Below, one piece after another: positions 3,358 through 35,326 of a stretch of 38,333 bases of DNA. The DNA comes from Ectocarpus siliculosus. Taxonomy: Eukaryota > Sar > Phaeophyceae > Ectocarpales > Ectocarpaceae. Made by a program: the position numbers and the translations under genes. Position 1 is the stretch's first letter. Every line of letters begins with the position of its first letter. The notes beneath the pieces were generated by a model that ran no database searches, was not told the DNA's origin, and saw nothing but the letters and a program-made list of their open reading frames with translations. Location of the stretch: positions 7,948,708 to 7,987,040 of the forward strand of contig FN649727.1 of NCBI GenBank assembly GCA_000310025.1. The letters run 5' to 3'.

Positions 3358-5733
3358 TCATGGCCGCCGAGCGTAAAACACCAAGAACGGATCGCCAAAA
3401 ACCCCGCCGCCGCCCCTCAAGACAGCGCGCTCCTCTTCCGGAGACAACCACCCCACCGTGGCGTCGTCGAAAAGCGCGAAACCCGGCTTTCCACACGTCG
3501 AACCAGCTGCGGCTGCCCCCGGCGGTTCTTGTTGCACCAACGCCCGATTGTCCCTGTCCGCCTGCTGCTGCTGCTGCTGCTCCAGAAACGATGCCGAGTC
3601 CCCAGCAGCGGCATGAAGCGCGAAGGTGTAGTGGCCGGAAGCAAGGGTCTGTCCCTGGTGGAGGATGACGCCGATCAGGTCGTAGAAAACGTCCCCCGAA
3701 TCGCAAAGCTGACCGGCGCACGAGGTGATACTGCTGCTGCTGCTGCTGCTGCTGCTAGTGCTGCTGTTAACGCCGTCTTCGTGGAGCTGACACCTCGCGG
3801 CCTTTTTCACGACCAGCGTACGCTCGATTGCCTCCTCCCCGCTGCCCGCGGGCAGTCGCCCCTCCGCTCCACGACGCACATCACCCACCACGCTCTCGGG
3901 GGCCCCGCCGGAGGCACGGGCGAGCGCCGTCGGGTACGGGCACGGCGACGAGCGTTTCCGCGTCCCCGGGCGAACGTGCAAGGCCAGCAGGCGGGGTGGC
4001 GAGTGGACCGAAGACCGGCGCTCTGCTTCCGTCCACTGACGGCACGCCTCGCACCAGACCTTGTTGTTGCCCGCCAGGGACTCTCCCTCGAACACCCCGT
4101 CGACGAGGGTCTGCATTGTCCGGCGCCGCCCCCGGAGCGAAGGCCCGCCGTCGTTCTCGGCCGCCGGTATAGCTCCTTGCGCCGTGAGAGGTGGGGCGTG
4201 CTGCGGAGGCGGTAGGAGGGGCGGCAAGGTTAGCTCGGTGAAGTCCTCGCGGGCGGTTCTGTCCCGCTCGCACTCCACGCACAGAGTACGGGCGCAGAGT
4301 GTCCCGCGAAACGCCTGGGCCAAGCAGCAGAAGCTACTGCTGTGGCTGCCGCCGCTCCTTCGCCCGCCAACACCGCCCAGAGAAGTGGCCCCGCTGCCGC
4401 CGTCGTCGACGACGAGACCGAGAAACTTCCCCAAGAGCTCGGAGACACACGCCTGCCCTGTTCCGAATTCAGTCGACCCCGTAGCCCCCGCCCCCCCGCC
4501 TCCGAGTCTCGAGCGGTCAGCGCTCAGCCACCCTCCACGAATCAGCTCTACCAAAAAAGTCGGCGCGATTGCCTCAACAAGAACGCCTTCCCCCGTCGAA
4601 GCGCTCGGTCGGAGCGGCGTTTGGTCGTACGGTTGGCACGTCTTGGACTCCGGGCTACTAGTAGCACCGCTGCCGGTCGACTCGGGTTCAGCGGGCGATG
4701 AAACAGCCGTCTGCGACCCAAAGGCCACCAATTGCTGCTGAGACAGCGCCCGGTTGCGTGTTTCCATCTCTCCCAGAACCTGCTCCAGAGCAGCAAGCAC
4801 CGGATTCCTTTGGGTTCCCGTTACCCCCGCAACCAGCACCGCTGTCCCCTCAGAAGCAGCACCAGCAGGTGCAGCGTCGGCTGCTGGTGGGGTCGAACAT
4901 GATCCTTCTGACCCCTCGCTCCCTACGTCGTGCCATCCACCACCACCCCCGCGACTCGACGTGAGCACCCCATGGCACGCTGTCAGAGCCTGCAGCACGG
5001 CATTCACGTAGCACGTCTCTCCCAGGTTCTTGAGCCCAACGAACGGCGGCGACGGCCCACTTGACGGGCGCTCAATCGTCCAAGCAGCCGGCGCGAGAAC
5101 TCCTGCCCTATCGAGGCAGGTCTCGCTCAAACCCGGCGATGCACCCCAAGGGTAGCCTATGGCCTCGGCGGGGGGGGCGAGCGCAGCGGACGAAGTGAAG
5201 GGCGAGCGAAATCGTTCCTGGAACGACGGAGAGCCTGCTGTGCCGATAGACGGCTGACCAACCGCCGCGTGCTGCGCCGGCAACGCGCGACGACGCTTGC
5301 CGAGGCAAAGCCTCGACCTTTTCCTGAGACGGTTGACTCCGCTGCTTGATCCGACAGGAGGGTGGTTTTCCGCTCCGAACAATACTGCTGCTCGTGATTG
5401 TGCTGATGGCGCTGGTGTCACCGCTGTTGTTGCTGCTGTGGCGTGCGGCATGTCTGGTACTTTTCGTGCCACCTGTGGAAAGAGATGACAGTCAACACGT
5501 TTGGTCGCTCCCACTGCTGCTGCTGCTGCTGCTGCTGGCATTATCCCCCGCTGCTGCCCGTCGCCCGTCACTACTTGGCTCGAGATCCGAGGGGGGGGCG
5601 CTAGGGCTGCTTCTGCTGCAGCATGCCTCGCCGTGCCGCTCGTTGGGTTGGAGGTTGCCTGAGTGTTGGCTGCGGCCGCTGCTTTGCTACATGCCGCCTT
5701 CGTGGTAGATCGAGTGCCGTAGCGACGGGACAT
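3358..5733 (-). CDS. Ubiquitin carboxyl-terminal hydrolase, USP1-like cysteine protease
   Basis: This 791-residue frame encodes a USP-family deubiquitinase that would remove ubiquitin from proteins. The Cys box GLKNLGETCYVNAVLQAL starts at residue 233, with the nucleophile Cys241. A zinc-ribbon pair follows (Cys485/Cys488 and Cys561/Cys564), the second half in the context CEACRQWTEAER, which recalls USP1. The His box (SGHYTF, His701) and FALFDD (Asp756/757) complete the triad, and the frame ends FLVFYARRP. The N-terminal 230 residues are low-complexity with a basic nuclear-signal-like patch (135-149). Poly-Ala, poly-Ser (about 657-671) and poly-Gln (719-724) tracts interrupt the fold. I chose the first ATG in the frame, at 5733; the frame stays open a few codons upstream, so an upstream exon is possible. 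No intron is needed. Known USP1 acts with a WD40 partner on ubiquitinated PCNA and FANCD2; applying that here is inference. Long plus-strand frames opposite it are shadows. Confidence 0.93.
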   Translation of the reverse strand: MSRRYGTRSTTKAACSKAAAAANTQATSNPTSGTARHAAAEAALAPPPRISSQVVTGDGQQRGIMPAAAAAAAVGATKRVDCHLFPQVARKVPDMPHATAATTAVTPAPSAQSRAAVLFGAENHPPVGSSSGVNRLRKRSRLCLGKRRRALPAQHAAVGQPSIGTAGSPSFQERFRSPFTSSAALAPPAEAIGYPWGASPGLSETCLDRAGVLAPAAWTIERPSSGPSPPFVGLKNLGETCYVNAVLQALTACHGVLTSSRGGGGGWHDVGSEGSEGSCSTPPAADAAPAGAASEGTAVLVAGVTGTQRNPVLAALEQVLGEMETRNRALSQQQLVAFGSQTAVSSPAEPESTGSGATSSPESKTCQPYDQTPLRPSASTGEGVLVEAIAPTFLVELIRGGWLSADRSRLGGGGAGATGSTEFGTGQACVSELLGKFLGLVVDDGGSGATSLGGVGGRRSGGSHSSSFCCLAQAFRGTLCARTLCVECERDRTAREDFTELTLPPLLPPPQHAPPLTAQGAIPAAENDGGPSLRGRRRTMQTLVDGVFEGESLAGNNKVWCEACRQWTEAERRSSVHSPPRLLALHVRPGTRKRSSPCPYPTALARASGGAPESVVGDVRRGAEGRLPAGSGEEAIERTLVVKKAARCQLHEDGVNSSTSSSSSSSSSITSCAGQLCDSGDVFYDLIGVILHQGQTLASGHYTFALHAAAGDSASFLEQQQQQQADRDNRALVQQEPPGAAAAGSTCGKPGFALFDDATVGWLSPEEERAVLRGGGGVFGDPFLVFYARRP

Positions 5734-6268
5734 TCTCCCCAGCAACAGCTCCTTGCGTACCTCTCGGCCCTGTGACTGCCCTGTTGGGTGTGCGGGTCAA
5801 CAAAGCAGTTGCCGGGTTGGAGACGCCCACGGAGAGACGCGGCGAGATTTTTTTGAATTTCGAATGTGGGTGTTCCGGCCAATCATTCCGGCGTTTTTGG
5901 AAACGGCTGTCCGAAAAGGGCTCGCGCGCTACACATCTCGGCACAACGGCGGTAGACCGTCCAAAATCGTCGTGTGTTTGTTGGTGTTGATGCTCGCGTG
6001 GTTCTTTTTGTAGCCAACCAGCTGACCAATCAAAAGACGCAAGTCCTACATACAGTTCGGGATAAAGACTCGCCGTGGGTGTTTGTGAGGGCAATACAAA
6101 CAACCACCGTCATCTCTGTCTGTCTTTCTCCGTCACCATCAACATGGCGAACATTCCGTCGCCTACATCATGTGTAAGTCTGGTCCAGAAGTGATTAAGC
6201 AAATGTGTCCCTGTTGCCCTTGCCTAGTGAAATGCACAAATTCTGTAAGACGTCGGAAAGAATGAGTC

Positions 6269-7809: not shown

Positions 7810-8471
7810 CGAACCAGTTTCCCCTCCCAGCTCTTTCCTGATCTCTCGCCCAAGGCCTTGACCTTGCATCAATCGAATATCAATGTGTATTTCCCCGGTG
7901 ACACAGGGGAGGGCGCAACGCCATCTCGAAGGCGACCTTCATCCTCATCCACGTGGAGGTAAACGTAGTGTGCGCACACGTTACCGCTAGGGACATTCTT
8001 GGCTGCCCGATTTTTTCTCCGTGAAGTCATGTTTCAAACCGTAGAATCTCAACACGTTGTCGTGCACTTTCGTGTCTTGGCGATAACATGCTACAGCGGG
8101 CTCCTTCGGAGGCTGTACAACCGCAAGTAGATGTTTCCCCTCTTTTTCTGTAGCTTAGCCGCACTACATGCAACCCTGAACACTCTGCTGCCACCAATTT
8201 TCTGCGCGTCCGTTTCCCACCCTTCTGGCGGCCTTTTTCTCGCAAATTATGACACTATTGGGCACTCTGGGTAGGTCCACCGCCGAATGGAAGAGATGTC
8301 GGGTTCCGGGCAGTGCGACTTTCGCTCCGACGCAGAGATGAACTGGGCAACGAGCAGCAAGGTCGGTTACGAACGGTCCGTATGAGGAAGACAAACTCCA
8401 AAGCGCGACAGTATATTACTTAGGGGTCACGAACAATTGACTATAGTGACCCTGAGCTAGGTACTATATTA

Positions 8472-8790
8472 CATGGCACCAGCGTTTCTTGGCGACGGAG
8501 TGGCTAGGAGTCGTCGATGTCCCTGTTGACTTGTCTTACAGGTGGCAGAACAGGCGACCTCTGCAGCTGGGGTGAAAATTGCAAAACGACGTGCCAGATT
8601 ACTACTCGCAAGGCTGATTCACGAAATTGATAATTCGGTAGCAACTGCGTGTAATCTTGCACGTCGTTTTGCAATTTTCACCCCAGCTGTAGAGTTCACC
8701 TGTTCTGCTACCTGTAAGACAAGTCAACGGGGGACAAGGCGGTCAGGGACATCGACAGCTCCTGGACACTCCATCTCCTCGAAACATTGA
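8472..8790. repeat. Long foldback element with near-identical inner arms
   Basis: The inner arms 8526-8602 and 8651-8727 are reverse complements over 77 bp with five mismatches, separated by a 48-base spacer. Weaker complementarity continues outward on both sides: the GTCGATGTCCCTG block, GGAGTG..AGGAG, and the GCACCAGCGTTTC/GCATCAATGTTTC pair. A 15-base insertion is present only in the right arm. The whole is therefore a hairpin of about 320 bp. No coding frame fits it. Likely identities are a foldback/MITE-type transposon or a hairpin precursor of small RNAs. No terminal duplication was identifiable. Confidence 0.85.
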
Positions 8791-8799
8791 TGCCGTGGA

Positions 8800-10014
8800 A
8801 CAGTGCTCCTCTGCAAGGAGAATGGAAAGTGAAGTTCCTTGGTATTGTCCGTCTTCCGAGATCAGTTGTGAGTATATCAAATTTCCAATCGTACTTCCAG
8901 TTTTGGTGCAAACGACTGGAATCACTATCCTCGTTCTTTGCTCATGAAATGGTCACCACCCAAATGAAGCAGTACACACAACAACAACGTGTTTCTGCTA
9001 AACGCAGGGACGCACGATGATGGATTTCCAACAGTTCGACGAGGCGTGTTTGGGCATGACCAAGGGGTGAGCCTAAAAGACAACACTGCCATTGTCGACG
9101 TGTACCTCTGTTTCCTGTCTGACGTACACAATATCCAGCACCACGCACATATCAACGATTCCCAGTGCTGGGCTAGTACCACCCTGATTGTGCAGCTGTC
9201 GTGTGGAAACATGTAAGCTCCCAAATCGACACAGAGCGACGTCTACCTGTGGGGATCGCGCTGCAAATCCGACCACACACTGCGCGCCAATCGTGACAAA
9301 CTTGCGCCTAAATTCGCTTGTTTCTTTGTATTGGCCAAGAATCGGGGCGGCGGAAGGCACGAGACGGCAAGCAACGTTTTACTCCGTGCTGCTCGAGGCT
9401 TGTCGCACGATTGGAGGAGACCAACAGGTGGAAGCGATTTGCGGGCAGTGTAAGGAGGACTCGACAGCGAGCCAGCGGTCAATGGTTGTCCTTTCCACCT
9501 TCCGGATGCCGTGCCTTCATTCGCTGCAACACCCACAAATACGTCGCAGCAATAGGCACACGTGGATGACGCTTCCGAACTCCACACTGTCCAGCGAAGT
9601 GACAAACGACGACACTAGCTTGTCAGGAGAACGCACGCATCAGAACAACGCCGACATCATGACAGGCCACCTCCACTCCCTTAGCTTCGGTCGAACAAAC
9701 GTCCTCAGGAGGGCGTAACTCTCCCTATCCTATGCGACGCTTGGCCGTACCCCATTGTACACATGAACCCATCCTGTGGCGCATGGCCGTACCCACCGTA
9801 CACACCCGACTACGTTTGTCTGTGCTTCCCCAGGACAACGACCCTGCTAATCGTCCGGCAACCGAAGGCCTCGTGAGGCCAAGCGTTGCGCCGCCCGAAT
9901 CGCCGTTGAGGGGATCGTTTCCTGCTGGTTTCGGTCAGGCAAGCAGCAGCAAAAGAATCTCCCGGGGTGGTGGAAGTAGGTACCGTAGGTTTGCCGTATG
10001 CGTGGCGTTTTGGG
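8800..10014. other. Spacer with unassigned open frames
   Basis: Overlapping frames on both strands (plus 9188-9718 of 176 codons; minus 9243-9605 of 120 codons) have moderately coding-like composition but no recognised domain and no convincing start. A loose direct repeat of a GGCCGTACCC..GTACAC block occurs at about 9740-9765 and 9783-9807. Nothing further can be supported. Confidence 0.3.
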
Positions 10015-23429: not shown

Positions 23430-26400
23430 CTAACTGCTCAATTCGGCTGTGACTTGTTGCTCCTGTTTTGCGGGAAGATACACACAGCGGTCACAAGTTT
23501 CGCTCACCACCCTGTCAACCGGGTTTCCTTGCGACCGTCGAACGTCCTTCGGCCCCGCTCGCCTCACGTCGCCCACCCCGCCGCTGAAGATCCTGCGCGT
23601 GGGCGCGGGCGGGGTGTACGTAGCCTTCTTGACCCCCCCGCTGCCGCGCAAGCCGTTGTTGATGGGCTGCGGCGCCGGGTTGAAGGTGGGGGACAGGAAT
23701 GACGTCGGCTGCTGCTGCTGCTGCTGCTGCCTGGTGCTGGTGACTGGCGTGCCTCGCTTTCTCGTGCGCGTGGCGTTGCCGCCGTTGCCGTTCGGGGAAC
23801 CGAAGACGAACGCCCCTTGCGTGACGCCGCCGCCGCCGCCGCCGCTACCGCCGGAGTGGAACGAGATCTGCATGTTGTGGTCAGGCTTGAAGGGTGCGTT
23901 TGCCGCCGCCGCCGCCGCCCCCTTCTTCTTCCTCTTGGCGCGCATGTTGGCCTTCGGGGCGACAACAGCCTGGCCGCCGACGTGGGATGGGATGGGATGG
24001 GATGGGACGGGATGGAATAGGGTGATGGGATGGGATGGGATGGGATGGGGTTATCTAACGTACTCATTATTGATGGGATGGGATGGGATCGGATGGGATG
24101 GGGTGTGGTGGAATGGGGGTGCTATCTAACGTACCCACTTGTTGCTTGCCTTGAGGCATTGAACACCCATGCGTCTCGAGACAAAGCGTCATCGGCCTAC
24201 ACCACAGAGGGTGCATCTCGCTGTTCACGTCTCTGCCATGTTTGACGCGTGAGACATAGTTTCTTGTGGTAAAGGCTGTGGGAAAGAGGAGGGCACGAAC
24301 CCGGGCACTGAAAGAGAGGTCACCCACGACACAAGATGAAAGAAAGGAGATTTCACAGGCGGCTCCACGCAGGTCCCGACCCTGACCGTTTCGAATCATC
24401 GCTGCCCCCCCGCTCCCCCATCCCGAACAAACTCCTTCTTGCTCCCTGTGCGACTTGATTCTCATGCGGCGTAACGACGTGTTCCAAGGGCGATCGCAAC
24501 AACAACAGGTAGAAGCCAAGCGCGGCGAGACCCGTTTCGGCGTCTCGTGGCAAGAGGTTGTTGTGCTCAGGCGGCTCCGGGCGCGTGTGCGTGTTCCCAC
24601 CGAAGCAGCGAATTTTCGCGACGAAAGGGCTGCGTCGCAAGATAATTTTGCCATTAATAATATAGAGGAAAGTCCAAGCAGTAGCAGCCCCGTCCACCTG
24701 GCACAGAAGCGAGCGGCACACAGCAGCCCTATGTGCGACCAAAGAGCTGCCAACAGCCCTACAAACGTTCCAAGTGCGCCCACAGCAAGAAGATTGCCCC
24801 ACGTTTTCCACCCCTTGACTTGGCATAGATACAACATGAAACGCTGGGCCGAAAACTGACTGAGCTACTTGTACCCCCTTTTGCGGTTGCCATCGGCATT
24901 GTTAACATGCAACAAGGAGGGCAACAGCCAGCAATACCGTAGCAGAAGCACCTTCCCCTCGATCCTAGGCGCTTCTTTACGTTCCGGCCCTAAAAAATCC
25001 CAACAAAACACAACAACCAGCCTAAAAAACAAAGCGGTAAAAAATAAAAAAAAAATTACCTGGGCGTCAACGGCCGCTGCTTCGCCCCCGCCGCGCTGGC
25101 GCCTCCTCGACCTACCGCGCCTCCCCGCCTGCTGCTGCTGCTCCTGTTGCGCCTGCTGCTGCTGCTGCTTCTTGCTGGTTCCCTTCACGCCGATGTTGAA
25201 ACCCTTGCTCTTGATGTTCTGCGCCGCCTGCTTGGGCCCTCCGGGGCCTACCCCCTGCTTCTTTCCCCCCGGCCGCGCCCCCCCGCGCTTGGACCTGGCG
25301 CTGCCGGCGGCTGTGCTCTTCTTGGATGCCGCCGTTGCAGCCGTGGCCGCCGCCCGGGCCTTCTTGGCTTTGGCCTTGCTCACCCCCCTGGTGCTGGCGA
25401 CCAGAACGTCGGCGTTCTGGCGCGCCTTCTTCTTCGATTGCTGGGGGCGCGGGGGGGGCGTGGGTGGGACGGAATAGAGGGGTGTGAGGACGTAGAGGTA
25501 GGGGAGAGGAAATACAATGAGGGAGGGTAGAAAACGTTGAGGAAGGCAGGGAGGGAGGGTAGAAAACGTTGAGGGAGGCAGGGAGGGAGGGTAGACAACG
25601 TATAGGGAGGGAGGGGAGACAACGTACAGGGAGGCAGGGAGGGAGGGGAGAAAACGTTGAGCGAGGCAGGGAGGGGGGGGAGATAGCGTAGAGATGGAGG
25701 GACATGTAGCGGGGCGCGGCAGGGAGAAGGTGAAGAACGAGAGAAAGACAGGAGAGGTGAAGCTTGGCTTTGTGTCGGTACGTTTGCGACTGACGTTGGG
25801 AATCACAGCCCGTACGTGTGTGTTGTGAAAAAAAAGCCTACACCAGTGGGTGCGCTCCGCCTTTGGGATCTTGATACATGTACGGTCGCCACAACACGCC
25901 CTTTGGTTTCGCGAGCCACGACGCACACACCTGTGTCTTGGTGCGCTGCACCTCCGCCTCTATCTTAGCCGGAGATGGCTTGGCGCTGGCAGAGATGCCC
26001 CGCTTCTTGGACAGGGCCGCGTCCCTCTTGGCCTTGGACGTTCCGACGGACTTGGCCACCTTCTGCTTCGCTGCTGCGGCCTTCTTGCTCTTGGTCGTGG
26101 GGGTAGCTGTTGTCGGGGAGAACAACAGGGGGGGGGGTATTTGGTGAAATCGATAGTTCTAAAAAAGAGGCGTTATGATCCAGCGTTCCGGCAAGAGCAT
26201 CCCGGTACATGGCGGTGTGGATCGCAAGGTGATTACGTTCCCCCGCTGAAAAAAGATGAAGGAATGTCCTGGGCTGTTGAAACACGTGTTCTTCCCAAGG
26301 GCTCTTCGGTAGGTTTGGCGCTAAACGCCTCCGGCGCTTCGTGGGTGGCTGGGTCTAACGGGGCAAGTTGACAAAAGGATGCATAATAAGCCGCTGGTAC

Positions 26401-28124: not shown

Positions 28125-31100
28125 ATGTCACCACAAGGCGGCGTTGGAACGAAGGCCGACAACGCCGAGTACTACCCCTCGGGAAGGCTGGCGTCAGTCT
28201 TCAAGGAGGACGGGTCAGGCTTCATTTATTACCCATCAGGCCTCGTCGCAGTGTGCAAGGGAGTTGTTGACGGACGTGGTCGATATTACGTCTACGGCGA
28301 CGACCGGAGATCCACCCCTCTCGGGGCGGTCAACGAGCATGGCGTGGGATTCTTCCTGGGCCCATCCGGCGTGCGCTTGGCGCTAAGCAAGGTGTCTAAA
28401 TACGTTGAGAGAGAAGTCGATTATCAATACATCCAGGAATTCTCGCGACAAAAGTGCTGTGGATGACGGCGCATGTTTTTGCATGTTTATATGGTTGCTC
28501 GGCAGAACTTATTCTGCAGCGTAATATTTCCACTTTGAACGTTGGGTAAATTAGCGCACGCGTTTGTTGTGTTCCAAAACCATACACAAGGTTAGATAGT
28601 ACGGCACCGTGTTTTCAAAGCCACCCCCTCGTATCTGTGCGAATAAAGCTTTGGGTTGCCCGTGCATCGCCCAGAAACTACCGTACATTCGGCGAGCGCT
28701 GAGAAGGACCAGAACCGGGGTGCCCCCTTGTTCGCACGTCGTGAGCCTCCTCACAAGAGCTGCATGCAGGCGGTAGAACGTTCTACTTCTCGAGTGCATA
28801 CTTGGAACATGCACATAGTCTCAGAGCGTAAACTGCAGGTAGGGATAGTTTCAAAAGCTTCTCGCCTGCACCAGGTCGACGTGATGAGCTCCTCCCGATG
28901 TCGACCTACAGAGTAAAAGGCTAGACGCCTACATACGCACTGACTCCTGGTGCGTGCACGTTGTTCAAGGTGGGAGGGCTCATCACCGATAGGCACGGAT
29001 ACATCGCAAGAGAATGGCGGTATGACCCAGGTGCCCACATGCCCCCACCTACCAGCGTCCTCGATGTCAAGCTGAACAAGAGTATGAACTTCGAGTTCCT
29101 GGATCGGCGCGAAATGCGAATCAAGTTCTTGCACGAGGGTATCTCCCACGAGCTTGACGCTGGCGTGCACCCGAAGCGGGAGGGTACCTACCTTGACAAC
29201 AGGTTTGGCAATTTAGAAGCAACCAGTGCTCATGAGCGGGTAGCTCGTCGTTAAGCTAATTGTAGTACGGTCTGCACGTCGACAAGCCCTTGAACGAGCC
29301 AGGGACATGCACAAACCGATCGCGTTTTCTTTGATTGTGTCGAATCCCCCTTTTCCCGAAGACATTCTCAGACTACATGTGTACATGAGGAAGTGTGTTC
29401 CATAGCTCTCCTGCAACCTATCGCGTACAAACAATGCTCATCGCCTACTCCTCGACAAACCGCGGTGAGGACATAGCATAGCCGGCTCAAATCAAGCGAC
29501 AGCTTCCGTGTGAAAGAACGATCCTGTCCTACAAACCACACACATCCCGGTCCGTCCCTCCGTGCTTCTGCCGCACCGCCGATGCGCAGCATTCGTTTGC
29601 CCGGGGGGGGTCTGGAACCCCAAATCCAACGTGTTTCTTTGATGTCGAGGCAGCAGGCGTTCGGCAACGCCATGAAGGCCAAGCGGGATCGCCTGAAGCC
29701 GAGGAGTCGGAATCTAGCGGGAGCTTGCAAGAGTCTCGTTGCCAGCCTCGAAAACGGTTTTGACGGGATGAACCCTCAGGCAAGCAACGTTTTTCTTTTA
29801 ACGGAATCAGCGGAAGGCACTGAGAGACTGTTACAGTATATTGGTAGAGGAGATTGGTGGCCTGAGAGATAGAGCCAGTGGTTGAAATACCAGCCAAAGC
29901 AAGCAGCATCTAGACCAATTGAAGTATGAACACTGACCGCCGTCTCGTGCTGAAAGATGAGCGAAAACAACGTTGGATGACTTTCGACCGAAGTGCACCT
30001 GACCTTGTTCAGTTGTTCTCCCGAAGACAACTCCAGCAAAGAAATGCTATCTCTGAATCGAAACAGCTCGGACACATTTAAAAGTTGTTCTTCTGCACCG
30101 ATGCACCAAAAGGGGAGTCAGAGGCACACAGCGGTACTCATCCCAAAACGTCCCATGACTGCCCTACAACCCCACCCTCGCAATATAGGTTGAACCGTTC
30201 CCCGACCCGTCTTGGAAGCACGATGCTCTTACGGCTACCTACGGAGAGCTGCCCAGAATACGGAGCACGGGGCTAGAGGTCGGTCCCACCCACGGCCTAG
30301 GGAGCATGATCTACGATGACGATGACGACGGCAGAGGAGGCCCAGGAATGCGCCGATCAAGGTCGTGGGGTGGGGGTGCAGGGGTTGGGAGTGGGGGTGA
30401 GGGGGGCCGCGGCGACGACGCTTTCGCGGCGGCCTCGAGGCTGAGGAAGGGCGGGAAGTGGCTGGGGGAGCTGGACGTGCGACTCCAGGTGTCCGCCGAG
30501 AACCCGCTACTCAAGAGGTAGGTACGTGGGGCCGTTCCGGCCCGGGCGTGCCTGCTTCGGCCGTTCCGGCCCGGGCGTGCCTGCTTCGGCGGGAAATGGG
30601 CGCTGTTGCACCCTCCCTGGAGTATCACTGGATGTTCGTAGAGCAAGGTTGGTTGGCACGCTATTTTCACATGCTATAATAGTACTACCGTCTCGCGTAT
30701 TGAGCGGCATTGGATCTCAACGGTATTCTTTTCGTCTCTCAACCAGGAGCGCGGGAGATAAAGCGTTGTGAAATGATTTTCGGTCGGGTCGTCCAATATG
30801 CGGGTGTGTACACACCAACGTCCTAGGTGTGGTATGTACAGCGGCGAAATATTCCTGTATACTACTGTACGTCGAAGTTAACTAAGGGTGAGGGCTGGCT
30901 CATCTCGATACACTACGCCTTTGAAATCGTGCGACCTCTGCAGAGATCAAGAACGGCTGAAAAAGACTTGAGCAACCTCGGCTTTTTGTTTCTGTTCGAC
31001 GCCCAGATCGAACTTATTGCAGGCGGCAAGCGGCCGCTACGCGGAGGAGATCGTTGTGCCAGGGGCAAAGACGTCGGTGTCCAACCCTACCGGAAAGACA

Positions 31101-34100
31101 ACCGTTTCAGGGGTGCCTCTGCCCAAGGTTCCGGCCTCTAGGTACTGTGTTGCTCGTGGACCTTGGCTCGACCAAGCTAGTGAGTCGCTGACATTACACG
31201 GCAATCTCGAGGAAATACACGGAATAGACATATTAACAAGCACTAACATATCAAAGGCTACAACCCGCCAAGCATAATGTGAGCTTTTTCCGAGGTAACA
31301 ACGGTGCATGCTCCATAGCCTTGCTGCTCTCGAGATTTAGGTATTGGACAAATGACGACCGCAGTAGCATTGTTCACAGACAACTAACGGCTACAACAGT
31401 AGCGTTGTTCTACTCCGTGAGTGAGATTTTCATGGGTGCCCGCGGATGGCTGGAACGGCGACGAGATCACGACAGTAAGGAATGTTGCCAAAGGTCGAGA
31501 CTTCTCCTCTTCTCTATGTACGTCTGCTACGTGCACCAGCGAGGATTGGTTGCGTACGATATCATTTGTCGCCGTTACTTTCAGTTTCTGTGTGCTTTTT
31601 TCACCATGAATCGGATTCAGCACGTGCGTGTGCGCTCGGAAAACGTTGAAGTTTCCGCTCTTTTTTCCCCCACAAGCACACCTGGTATGCTTGAAAGGGT
31701 ATGTACTGTGAGAACCGGTCGGTCTCCTTGAAAGCAACTTACCGAAAAACGGGCTTTGCGAGGTGGCGAGTACTCAGATACGCCCGGTTTGACCGGATAG
31801 ATAGGCCGGTCCGCCAACCTGAGCCAACGCTCCGGCAAACATCCAGAACGGTACACCGGCAGCCCTTGACTCCTTCCGTACACCACCAAACGACACAAAA
31901 GAGCGGCTCGACCGGAAACCTGGCCCCGCCACTCCGTCCTGACAAGCCAACGCGATGCACTGTATGTACGACACCGGGGCTCTCTCCGCTGATGCTCGCT
32001 GCCGCTCGATTTTTGCGCCGCGCACGCCACCCACCGAGCAGGCTGCGAGCCTTCCTCGAGGAGGAGGCCGCGCCCGACCAGCTGGTGACCGTGCTTGGAG
32101 TTCGCGGAGACGACCCGGCGTGCAATAAGGTGCAGACCATCGCCGAGCTCGCGAACTGCTTTCTCGTTCAGGGCTTGTCCTCCTCCTCCGGGGAGGGAGG
32201 CTCCGAAGGGGGGGAAGGGGGCGAGGGCGGGCGCATGAACAACAACAGCAGGAGCAGCAGCGCGGCCGGCCCCTCGAGCCGTGCCTCTGTCTCGGGCGCT
32301 GAGAAGTACAGGATGGTGAGGGTCGACTTCGCGGAGCACCGGGCCACGGCGGAGCTGTACGGGGTTCAAGCCCTCCCGGCGTTCCTCATGTTTCAGGGGG
32401 GACGGCTTGCCTGGGTGGGGACGCTGGGGGGGAGTCCCCTGAAAGCGGCGCCTCCTGCGGGTGCAGCGGGTGGGAGGAGGGTGCTACTCGTGGAACCGTG
32501 CGCAAAGGTAAAAGGGGAGATGCAGCAAAATGTCGAGAGCGGGGTGAGGGAGGGTGTCGAATCGGAGGGGGTGGAGGATTTCAATACATATGGACCGGAC
32601 GTACAGAAAGAAAGGTCGGACGCGTACTGTAGGTCGAAACAAGCTCCATAGTAGGCCACTTTCGTGTGTGTGCGGACGGAAAGCGAAACCGGCGTGAAGG
32701 GGTAGGCTAGTGTGCTGCCCGGAACCCCATCGCTTTATTGAGAAGTTGTTCCGATCTCTCTCTACTCTGGACACTACATTTCCCGGTACGCGTATGTGCC
32801 ATTTAGCGCCTACGGCGACATATTATTGCACGCAACATTTTGGACTGTTGCCTCACACAAAGGGGGACGGATGAAGTTTGTCACAGCGGCTGGGGCCCGT
32901 GAGTGCACGGTAGCAGACAGGTCTATTGTTTGACAGGTGGCACCCGCAACTTAGACGACACCCCGGCGATGGCATAGACCGAATTTGTCTTTCTCGCGCC
33001 CTCCACCCCAATGCCGTCCCCGCCCCTACTTGGCATAGCGGCAAATCTCGACAGAGCGAGCGCTCAGGAGATTCGGGTGCAGCTGGGATCTAGTCCTCAA
33101 CGCTCCACAAGCACTTTTGCGGATACAGGTACATGCAAGCTCACGCAATTAACGTGTTTTTTCATGAAAACCTCAGTCGAACGGTCCGCTTCGGGAGTTC
33201 GATATGATGGGGGATGTTAGTTTCTCTTGAGCGCTGCGGCGGAGAAGCCTGGCGTGTGTGGCGCAATCTTCTCCTTGCCTGGGTTGTGGAACACATGCCG
33301 TGACAATAGTCTTGTTCGAGGAGGTTCTTATTGCTTTGTGGTGAGATACGCAGCATTGCTGAGTGTTGAGCCCTTGTTGGATATTGCGGCAGCGATGGGG
33401 AGAGCGCATTTTATCAATGCGAATACCCACCAAATTGTTGTATTTTGTTGTTGTGTCTGTTTTCATCCATGCCTCCGATAGTTAGATTCACCGTTTACTG
33501 TGCTGTTCATGGTGTGTAGCGGTTCCGTGGCCAATGATGTCAAATGTGTTCTAGATTGTTCGTAGTGCCTCTTAAGAGATTCGCCGTAATCGCTTCTCTC
33601 TCTAACCTTGCTTGCAGGTCTCGGTGTAATTAGCAACTCGTTCGGTCCGCTAATCGTTGGGCGATGATGTTGTGGTCGTGTCGAATTTTCAACGAGCAGG
33701 TGGCTAGAACAAACTCAATGGCTTCCGATTCCGGCAACGCGGCCTCTCCAAACGGAGAGGGTTACGGCGTGCTGATGATAAGCAACGCCCTGGGAGCTGC
33801 GGAGGTCATCGCTTTGGAAAAGGTGTGGCGCAGCCGTAGGTTCCCCCGACAGCTTGGTCGGAAGGCATTGGGGAGTGAGATGTCGTTGGTGGTCAAAAAT
33901 ACGAAATACAAAGGACCAGCTGACTCAACGGGGAGTGCTACAGTACGCCAATTGAAGTGACACCGGTAACGCTACTTGTCCGTGAACCTCAAGCGATCCC
34001 CGTTTTCCAAGTCTAAAAAAACGTGCTGCACCCTTTGTGAACTCATTGACTCCCGCGAATGTGACACGGAGCAGCCACAGCATCACATAGGAGTCGGCAG

Positions 34101-35326
34101 CAGCACCAACCACTCACCATGCGCCCCCCCACTCTCCCGCCCCCCCCCCGACCCCAACAAAAGGCCTTACACGGCGGTGGAGCAGGTTTCAGCGGCGGCG
34201 GCGCCGACTCCGTCGTCGTCGGCCTCGCACACGTGCAGGGCGACCCCTCCGCCATGGGCAGCGCCGCCCTTAGGGTCGTCTCGGCCGGCTTTACCGAGGC
34301 CGCCGACGGGAAGCGGGCCGTGCTGTCCCCGCACCTCGCCCTCGTCGCCGACGTGGCCGTCAGCACGCCCGTGAGAACCTCGGCTCTGGAGGCGGTGTTC
34401 GATAGGTGCTGCAACCGGCCGAAAGAGGATGCCAGCGTAGCGGGAGTGGGAGGGAAGAGAGGCGATGGAAAAGGGGGCGTGTCGTTGTCGATGTCGGCGA
34501 GCTGCAGCGCGCTGGAAGGCGGGGACGGCAGGTGGGTGGGAGATTGCTCCTGCGGTGCTGGTGGGTGGAGCGGTGGTACCACAACGGTTGGGTGGAGCGT
34601 TCAGAACCATCGACGTGGTTGGCTCGCACACATGGATAGCTGGATCACTTTCGCAGAAAGCAAAAACCTTGGTCTCTGGCAAAGTCAAAGGCGACTACAG
34701 ATAGTCGACAAATTGCCACTATTAATACCAGCTTGTTGCTACGAGGGGTCGCGAGAAACTCCAACCAAGGACGACGCCGTACTGCACTCTGAAACCATGT
34801 GGCGCGGAGGAATGCCGTGATGTTGTGTCCCCTTTCTTTGCCCGGTGTCTCTAGCGCATGGGTCACCGGGGGAAGGGGTGTATTCCCATACACTCCGTGA
34901 CAAAGGTAAGGACATGGAAGCCCGAGCAAACAACAACAAAAACTCGCCAATGTTACTCGGGTACATACGCAATACGCAATCATACACTCGGAATCGGCTT
35001 TTCATGCCCTCAATTTCAGACATCAAAGCTTTCCGTTTGACGATGAAACGGTTCCCCGATGACCTCGACTCTCTTCGCCTTTGATTCGAAGGTACAAGGG
35101 CGTTACGCCATCGCGGCTGTTGCAAAAAATGGAGGAAGTCGGAGCACAGTTGGCCATGGGGATATTCGCGTCCAATCAGGCGACGAAGGCGGGAAGACAA
35201 CACCGGCCGGGGCGGGGAGGTGCCGCTGCGTCCGCGGGAAAGGGGGGGATACTATTGTCTGCACAGGAAACGAGCTGCAAAGGGTTTCTGTTGGAGCGTT
35301 CAACGCTGCAGCGGATCGCTCTCTAA
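28125..35326 (+). CDS. FAM194 (ERICH6-like) protein with thioredoxin-like and receiver-like segments (multi-exon)
   Basis: Best exons: 28125-28391, 28970-29239, 29654-29779, about 30270-30517, 31023-31141, 32042-32507, 33700-33822, 34164-34531 and 35092-35326. Exon 1 (YYPSGRLA, IYYPSGLVAV) and exon 2 (GGLITDRHGYIAREW) form a FAM194 domain, fused in phase 0 at SK|VGG exactly where the family runs on. Exon 32042-32507 has VRVDFAEHRATAELYGV and ALPAFLMFQGGRLAWVG, a thioredoxin-like beta-cisPro-beta unit; no CxxC is seen, so probably redox-inactive. Later exons contain VLLVEPC, EAADGKRAV, HLALVADVAV, VSLSMSAS and YKGVTPSRLLQKMEE, in the order of receiver-fold elements. Junction phases agree at 28391/28970, 31141/32042, 32507/33700, 33822/34164 and 34531/35092. 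The link 30517 to 31023 is unresolved (a 25-base exon at 30842-30866 would restore phase), and exon 2 could instead end at TAA 29254. ERICH6 relatives are associated with flagellated or sperm cells; function here is unknown. Confidence 0.72.
30531..30588. repeat. Perfect two-copy 29-bp GC-rich tandem repeat
   Basis: Two exact copies of a unit beginning GCCGTTCCGGCCCGGGCG sit 13 bases after the splice donor at 30518, inside an intron of the FAM194 gene. Each unit contains the palindrome CCGGCCCGGG-like core. The perfect identity points to a recent duplication. Confidence 0.85.

Follow-up and report, generated by a model that had tools for sequence, protein, structure and literature searches.

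The forward strand of the window, the 38,333-nucleotide stretch of Ectocarpus siliculosus DNA that we analyzed, probably carries one nine-exon eukaryotic gene of the FAM194/ERICH6 family at positions 28125-35326. We consider it reasonably likely that the product of this one gene consists of an N-terminal FAM194 domain, a linker followed by a thioredoxin-like domain that lacks a CxxC motif, and a C-terminal tail, and that it has a structural or adaptor role in a motile flagellum. The gene is real and belongs to a known family; its thioredoxin-like part is plausible, and its tail is unexplained. The striking feature that had been ascribed to it, a response-regulator receiver, is not supported by our sequence comparisons. 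Of the three modules that the original prediction tentatively joined in a single chain, the FAM194 domain and the CxxC-less thioredoxin-like unit stand, on exons that are in phase, and the receiver tail does not.

Translation of the joined exons yields 761 codons followed by a stop codon. All eight junctions are in phase along the chain, and the frame is open to the stop at 35324-35326. Since the exon ends were set by eye with phase among the criteria, this agreement is supportive of the model and is not independent of it. The junction SK|VGG, which had been claimed to be in phase, is indeed so at 28391|28970. Seven of the introns are of the GT-AG type and one, intron 3, is of the GC-AG type (29780-30188; donor CAG|GCAAGC), and their lengths range from 341 to 1192 bp. 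The GC content is approximately 55 percent. The linker encoded by exons 4 and 5 has no Pfam match at E values up to 1. Near the start of intron 4, positions 30530-30590 hold an exact 29-bp tandem duplication of 2.1 copies. Exons 1 through 9 would presumably be joined in a single transcript.

Table 1. Exons of the proposed FAM194/ERICH6-family gene, with positions in the window and residues of the 761-residue product.
Feature	Position	Strand	Residues	Content
Exon 1	28125..28391	+	1-89	ATG start; FAM194 domain, first part
Exon 2	28970..29202	+	90-166	FAM194 domain onward from SK|VGG
Exon 3	29650..29779	+	167-210	FAM194 match stops at residue 199; GC-AG intron follows
Exon 4	30189..30517	+	211-319	Linker with Asp-rich and Gly-rich stretches
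Exon 5	31007..31141	+	320-364	Linker
Exon 6	32042..32507	+	365-520	Thioredoxin-like domain, then VLLVEP
Exon 7	33700..33822	+	521-561	Tail without recognized fold
Exon 8	34164..34531	+	562-683	Tail with EAADGKRAV, ALVADV and LSMSAS
Exon 9	35092..35326	+	684-761 and TAA stop	YKGVTP; C-terminal end

Judged from its sequence, the identity of the FAM194 domain is certain. The Pfam FAM194 profile (PF14977) matches residues 10-199 with an E value of 6.1e-43 and a score of 146.9 bits, against a curated cut-off of 27 bits, and the match is nearly complete, covering positions 2-201 of the 202 positions in the profile. The domain had been predicted to lie in the first two exons; the prediction of the domain holds, and the exon count was one short because the match is spread across exons 1, 2, and 3. 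A second Pfam match within the same stretch, to DUF3008 (E 0.041), is at chance level and was discarded. A comparison of the FAM194 part with the PDB gave no matches at E values up to 10. Relatives of the gene were found neither in viral contigs, using scans that reach close relatives only, nor in phages using megablast. In 100 bacterial genomes of one phylum, FAM194 gave no match, as did the controls of that scan, which makes this negative uninformative.

The unit encoded by exon 6 is similar to thioredoxin, and this similarity, while weak, is confirmed to lie clearly above chance. In the whole protein, the Pfam Thioredoxin profile (PF00085) matches with an E value of 0.024 and a score of 15.1 bits; in a 98-residue version from which a low-complexity insert of approximately 37 residues (about residues 412-448) was removed, the match strengthens to an E value of 8e-4 and 19.8 bits, with both scores lying below the curated cut-off of 23.5 bits. 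Likewise, the NCBIfam model TIGR01068 matches at an E value of 0.0027, under its own curated cut-off. The Pfam and NCBIfam matches both cover the second half of the unit, where the cis-Pro stretch ALPAFLMF is kept and P477 aligns with the cis-Pro of thioredoxin. When a hidden Markov model (HMM) built from 15 bacterial thioredoxin-family domains was compared with residues 365-510, the best domain scored 14.5 bits, a score that none of 2000 shuffled versions of these residues reached (highest, 6.4). A profile comparison using hhalign gave a thioredoxin probability of 81.1, whereas shuffled sequences peaked at 2.5 (up to 100 shuffles) and 4.8 (400 shuffles). When the window's 187 open frames with 90 or more residues are ranked for thioredoxin, the one containing exon 6 comes first at 69.5, and the runner-up scores 21.8.

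The whole protein has 67 matches in the PDB; among the best 60 of these, 55 are thioredoxins, thioredoxin fusions, or designs, with a best E value of 0.016 for the thioredoxin-type matches, and the other five are aquaporins. For the tail, five aquaporin chains came up at chance level (E 0.31-0.36) and were discarded. A tblastn search with the unit in plasmids gave a weaker outcome: it returned 76 records, and among the best 20 of these, the top match is a trxA (E 0.06), four are named thioredoxin, and the rest are mostly chance matches. A Pfam match to OST3_OST6 (E 0.3) overlaps the thioredoxin-like part. The AlphaFold model of exon 6 alone, computed from the single sequence, has a mean pLDDT of 42.0, which is too low to use; at this low confidence, its second half runs strand-helix-strand-strand, in agreement with the order of elements in thioredoxin. 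Exon 6 would presumably encode a thioredoxin fold.

No CxxC motif is present anywhere in the 761 residues. A single cysteine, C392, lies near the active-site position, and since the alignment of the first half of the unit is ambiguous, so is its assignment to the first or the second cysteine position. Given the lack of a CxxC motif, the thioredoxin-like unit is probably redox-inactive. The claim of a thioredoxin-like unit that has the cis-Pro and lacks CxxC is borne out, as a weak similarity that clearly exceeds chance.

The tail raises the separate question of whether exons 7-9 are coding and belong to the same gene. We scored codon usage with a model trained on exons 1-6 and on an 812-residue open frame at 3361-5796 of the reverse strand, which matches a ubiquitin carboxyl-terminal hydrolase (Pfam UCH, E 8.5e-14). 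Of the six frames, the proposed one scores highest in exons 7, 8, and 9, with 0.204, 0.329, and 0.139 bits per codon, respectively, in a scoring scheme that skips stop codons in the other frames and so favors those frames. Exons 1-6 range from 0.003 to 0.32 bits per codon; the three tail exons lie inside this span or slightly exceed it. It is likely that exons 7-9 are coding and form a tail of approximately 240 residues that lacks a recognized fold. That they are instead non-coding and open by chance strikes us as improbable. Long open frames are common in the window, as the 187 frames of at least 90 residues attest, and stop-free background windows score as high as the exons in 59 of 1443 cases for exon 7, 6 of 227 for exon 8, and 50 of 602 for exon 9, counts taken from windows that overlap one another and may contain unannotated coding sequence. 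Against a chance origin stand the first rank of the proposed frame in all three exons, its closeness to the range of exons 1-6, and the fit of the junction phases. Somewhat less improbable, and still unlikely, is an arrangement of two genes or of alternative transcripts, in which a FAM194-thioredoxin product ends in exon 6 and a downstream gene begins at an ATG in exon 7. Such an arrangement would accommodate the roughly 47 further codons for which exon 6 stays in frame before the stop at 32649-32651, the in-frame ATG inside exon 7, and the length of intron 6, which at 1192 bp is the longest of the eight. It is opposed by the fair donor of exon 6, AAG|GTAAAA, whose phase fits, and by the absence of any in-frame stop between the acceptor of exon 7 and its ATG. 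We favor a single gene that extends through exon 9.

The original prediction read the tail as receiver-like on the strength of five short words, and all five are present in the order claimed: VLLVEP (residues 512-517), EAADGKRAV (606-614), ALVADV (620-625), LSMSAS (669-674), and YKGVTP (685-690). Receivers are marked by an acidic pair, a phospho-acceptor Asp, a Thr or Ser, and a Lys, in that order. In the tail, D624 in ALVADV can be placed as the phospho-acceptor Asp and the Ser in LSMSAS as the Thr or Ser by eye only; the acidic pair is absent at the putative first strand, whether this is taken to be VLLVEP or SVVVGLA, and no profile alignment spans every conserved receiver position. A degenerate receiver, spanning the last part of exon 6 through exon 9 behind the thioredoxin-like domain and serving as a non-phosphorylated interaction module, would account for the order of the words, and a few comparisons lean toward it. 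The hhalign alignment to the receiver profile (probability 2.1; E 0.023 for one comparison) covers 31 residues, 675-705, and places K686 on the conserved Lys; this marginal alignment corresponds to the end of the profile, namely its last strand and helix. For a longer version of the tail, hhalign gives 1.7, whereas up to 100 shuffles peak at 1.3. Averaged over 31 bacterial receivers, the Smith-Waterman score of exons 8-9 is reached by 16 of 200 shuffles, and that of the whole tail by 31 of 200.

The greater part of the evidence runs the other way, and we regard a degenerate receiver as improbable. The Pfam search, whose HMMER filters remove most matches above an E value of 0.1, listed no Response_reg domain (PF00072) for the 260-residue tail or for four trimmed constructs, and NCBIfam gave no match in the tail. 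The tail yielded no domain in an unfiltered hmmsearch with an HMM of the 31 bacterial receivers; when trimmed to a version of exons 8-9, it scored -4.5, a value reached by 1562 of 2000 shuffles. Six of 400 shuffles equaled the hhalign probability of 2.1, one of the 187 open frames in the window surpassed it, and 192 of 300 shuffles did as well or better in a global profile alignment. The best Smith-Waterman score against the 31 receivers, 42, was reached by 93 of 200 shuffles, and the tblastn test of the receiver claim in plasmids gave no match at E values up to 10. The AlphaFold model of exon 8 alone, with an unusable mean pLDDT of 37.4, consists mostly of strands and one helix and has no alternation of the two. 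As a control, five of the 31 bacterial receivers that were left out of the profile score 99.0-99.8 with hhalign, indicating that ordinary divergent receivers are detectable by this method; a strongly decayed receiver could escape it. After tests with Pfam, NCBIfam, our own HMM, local and global hhalign, Smith-Waterman, and tblastn, the receiver identity of the tail was rejected for want of support. One further Pfam match, to ADAMTS_CR_3 (E 0.31), falls on the tail portion of a single trimmed construct and is at chance level. It would be more improbable still that the gene encodes a three-module adaptor composed of a stramenopile-type FAM194 flagellar protein, a redox-dead thioredoxin fold, and a pseudo-receiver; if true, such an adaptor would join a sperm-associated family to a two-component signaling fold.

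Elsewhere in the window, positions 8469-8800 form a long inverted repeat with arms of 82 nt at 8521-8602 and 8651-8732 that are 93% complementary, and with outer arms at 8469-8525 and 8744-8800 that are 77% complementary. This repeat may be a palindromic remnant of a mobile element. A GGGA-rich minisatellite array with reported periods of 24-88 lies at 25519-25690. No Rfam families or tRNAs were found in the whole window.

With regard to function, the FAM194/ERICH6 family is tied to sperm and flagella. The FAM194 domain would dock to the axoneme, the redox-dead thioredoxin fold would serve as a binding module and not as an oxidoreductase, and the whole protein would act as a scaffold in the motile flagellum. 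One published study lists human ERICH6 among testis-specific genes and describes ERICH6B as its ubiquitously expressed paralogue (PMC7436996). It is from this testis listing, together with the background on the family, that we infer the flagellar location, docking, and scaffold role. FAM194/ERICH6 proteins appear to be little studied in the literature that we searched, where the titles listed for ERICH6 are mostly expression or association studies. In that literature, we found no mention of PF14977 and, among the titles listed, none on the architecture. Judged by title, several of the listed matches to FAM194 deal with cervical disease and methylation markers for it, such as FAM19A4.

Compared with known systems, the tail resembles receivers (PF00072) in a handful of short, similarly ordered words and in a marginal 31-residue profile alignment, and differs from them in that its similarity is not clearly above chance and the acidic pair is missing at the putative first strand. 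Among FAM194 proteins, human ERICH6 was formerly named FAM194A, and ERICH6B is likewise a FAM194 domain protein. The gene described here shares with them a near-complete FAM194 domain (E 6.1e-43); its model opens almost at the domain and continues for approximately 240 residues beyond exon 6, two candidate differences from the animal proteins. Animal ERICH6 may have a thioredoxin-like C-terminal piece. If the thioredoxin-like unit is common to the animal proteins, its presence in the family would be ancient, and the unit would offer a concrete handle on function. The unit departs from thioredoxin (PF00085) in its lack of CxxC, its low-complexity insert of approximately 37 residues, and its score below the curated cut-off, whereas it shares with thioredoxin the strand YRMVRVDF, a helix, the cis-Pro stretch ALPAFLMF, and the last strand, and two of the 15 aligned bacterial thioredoxin-family domains, L124 and L121, likewise lack the first cysteine.
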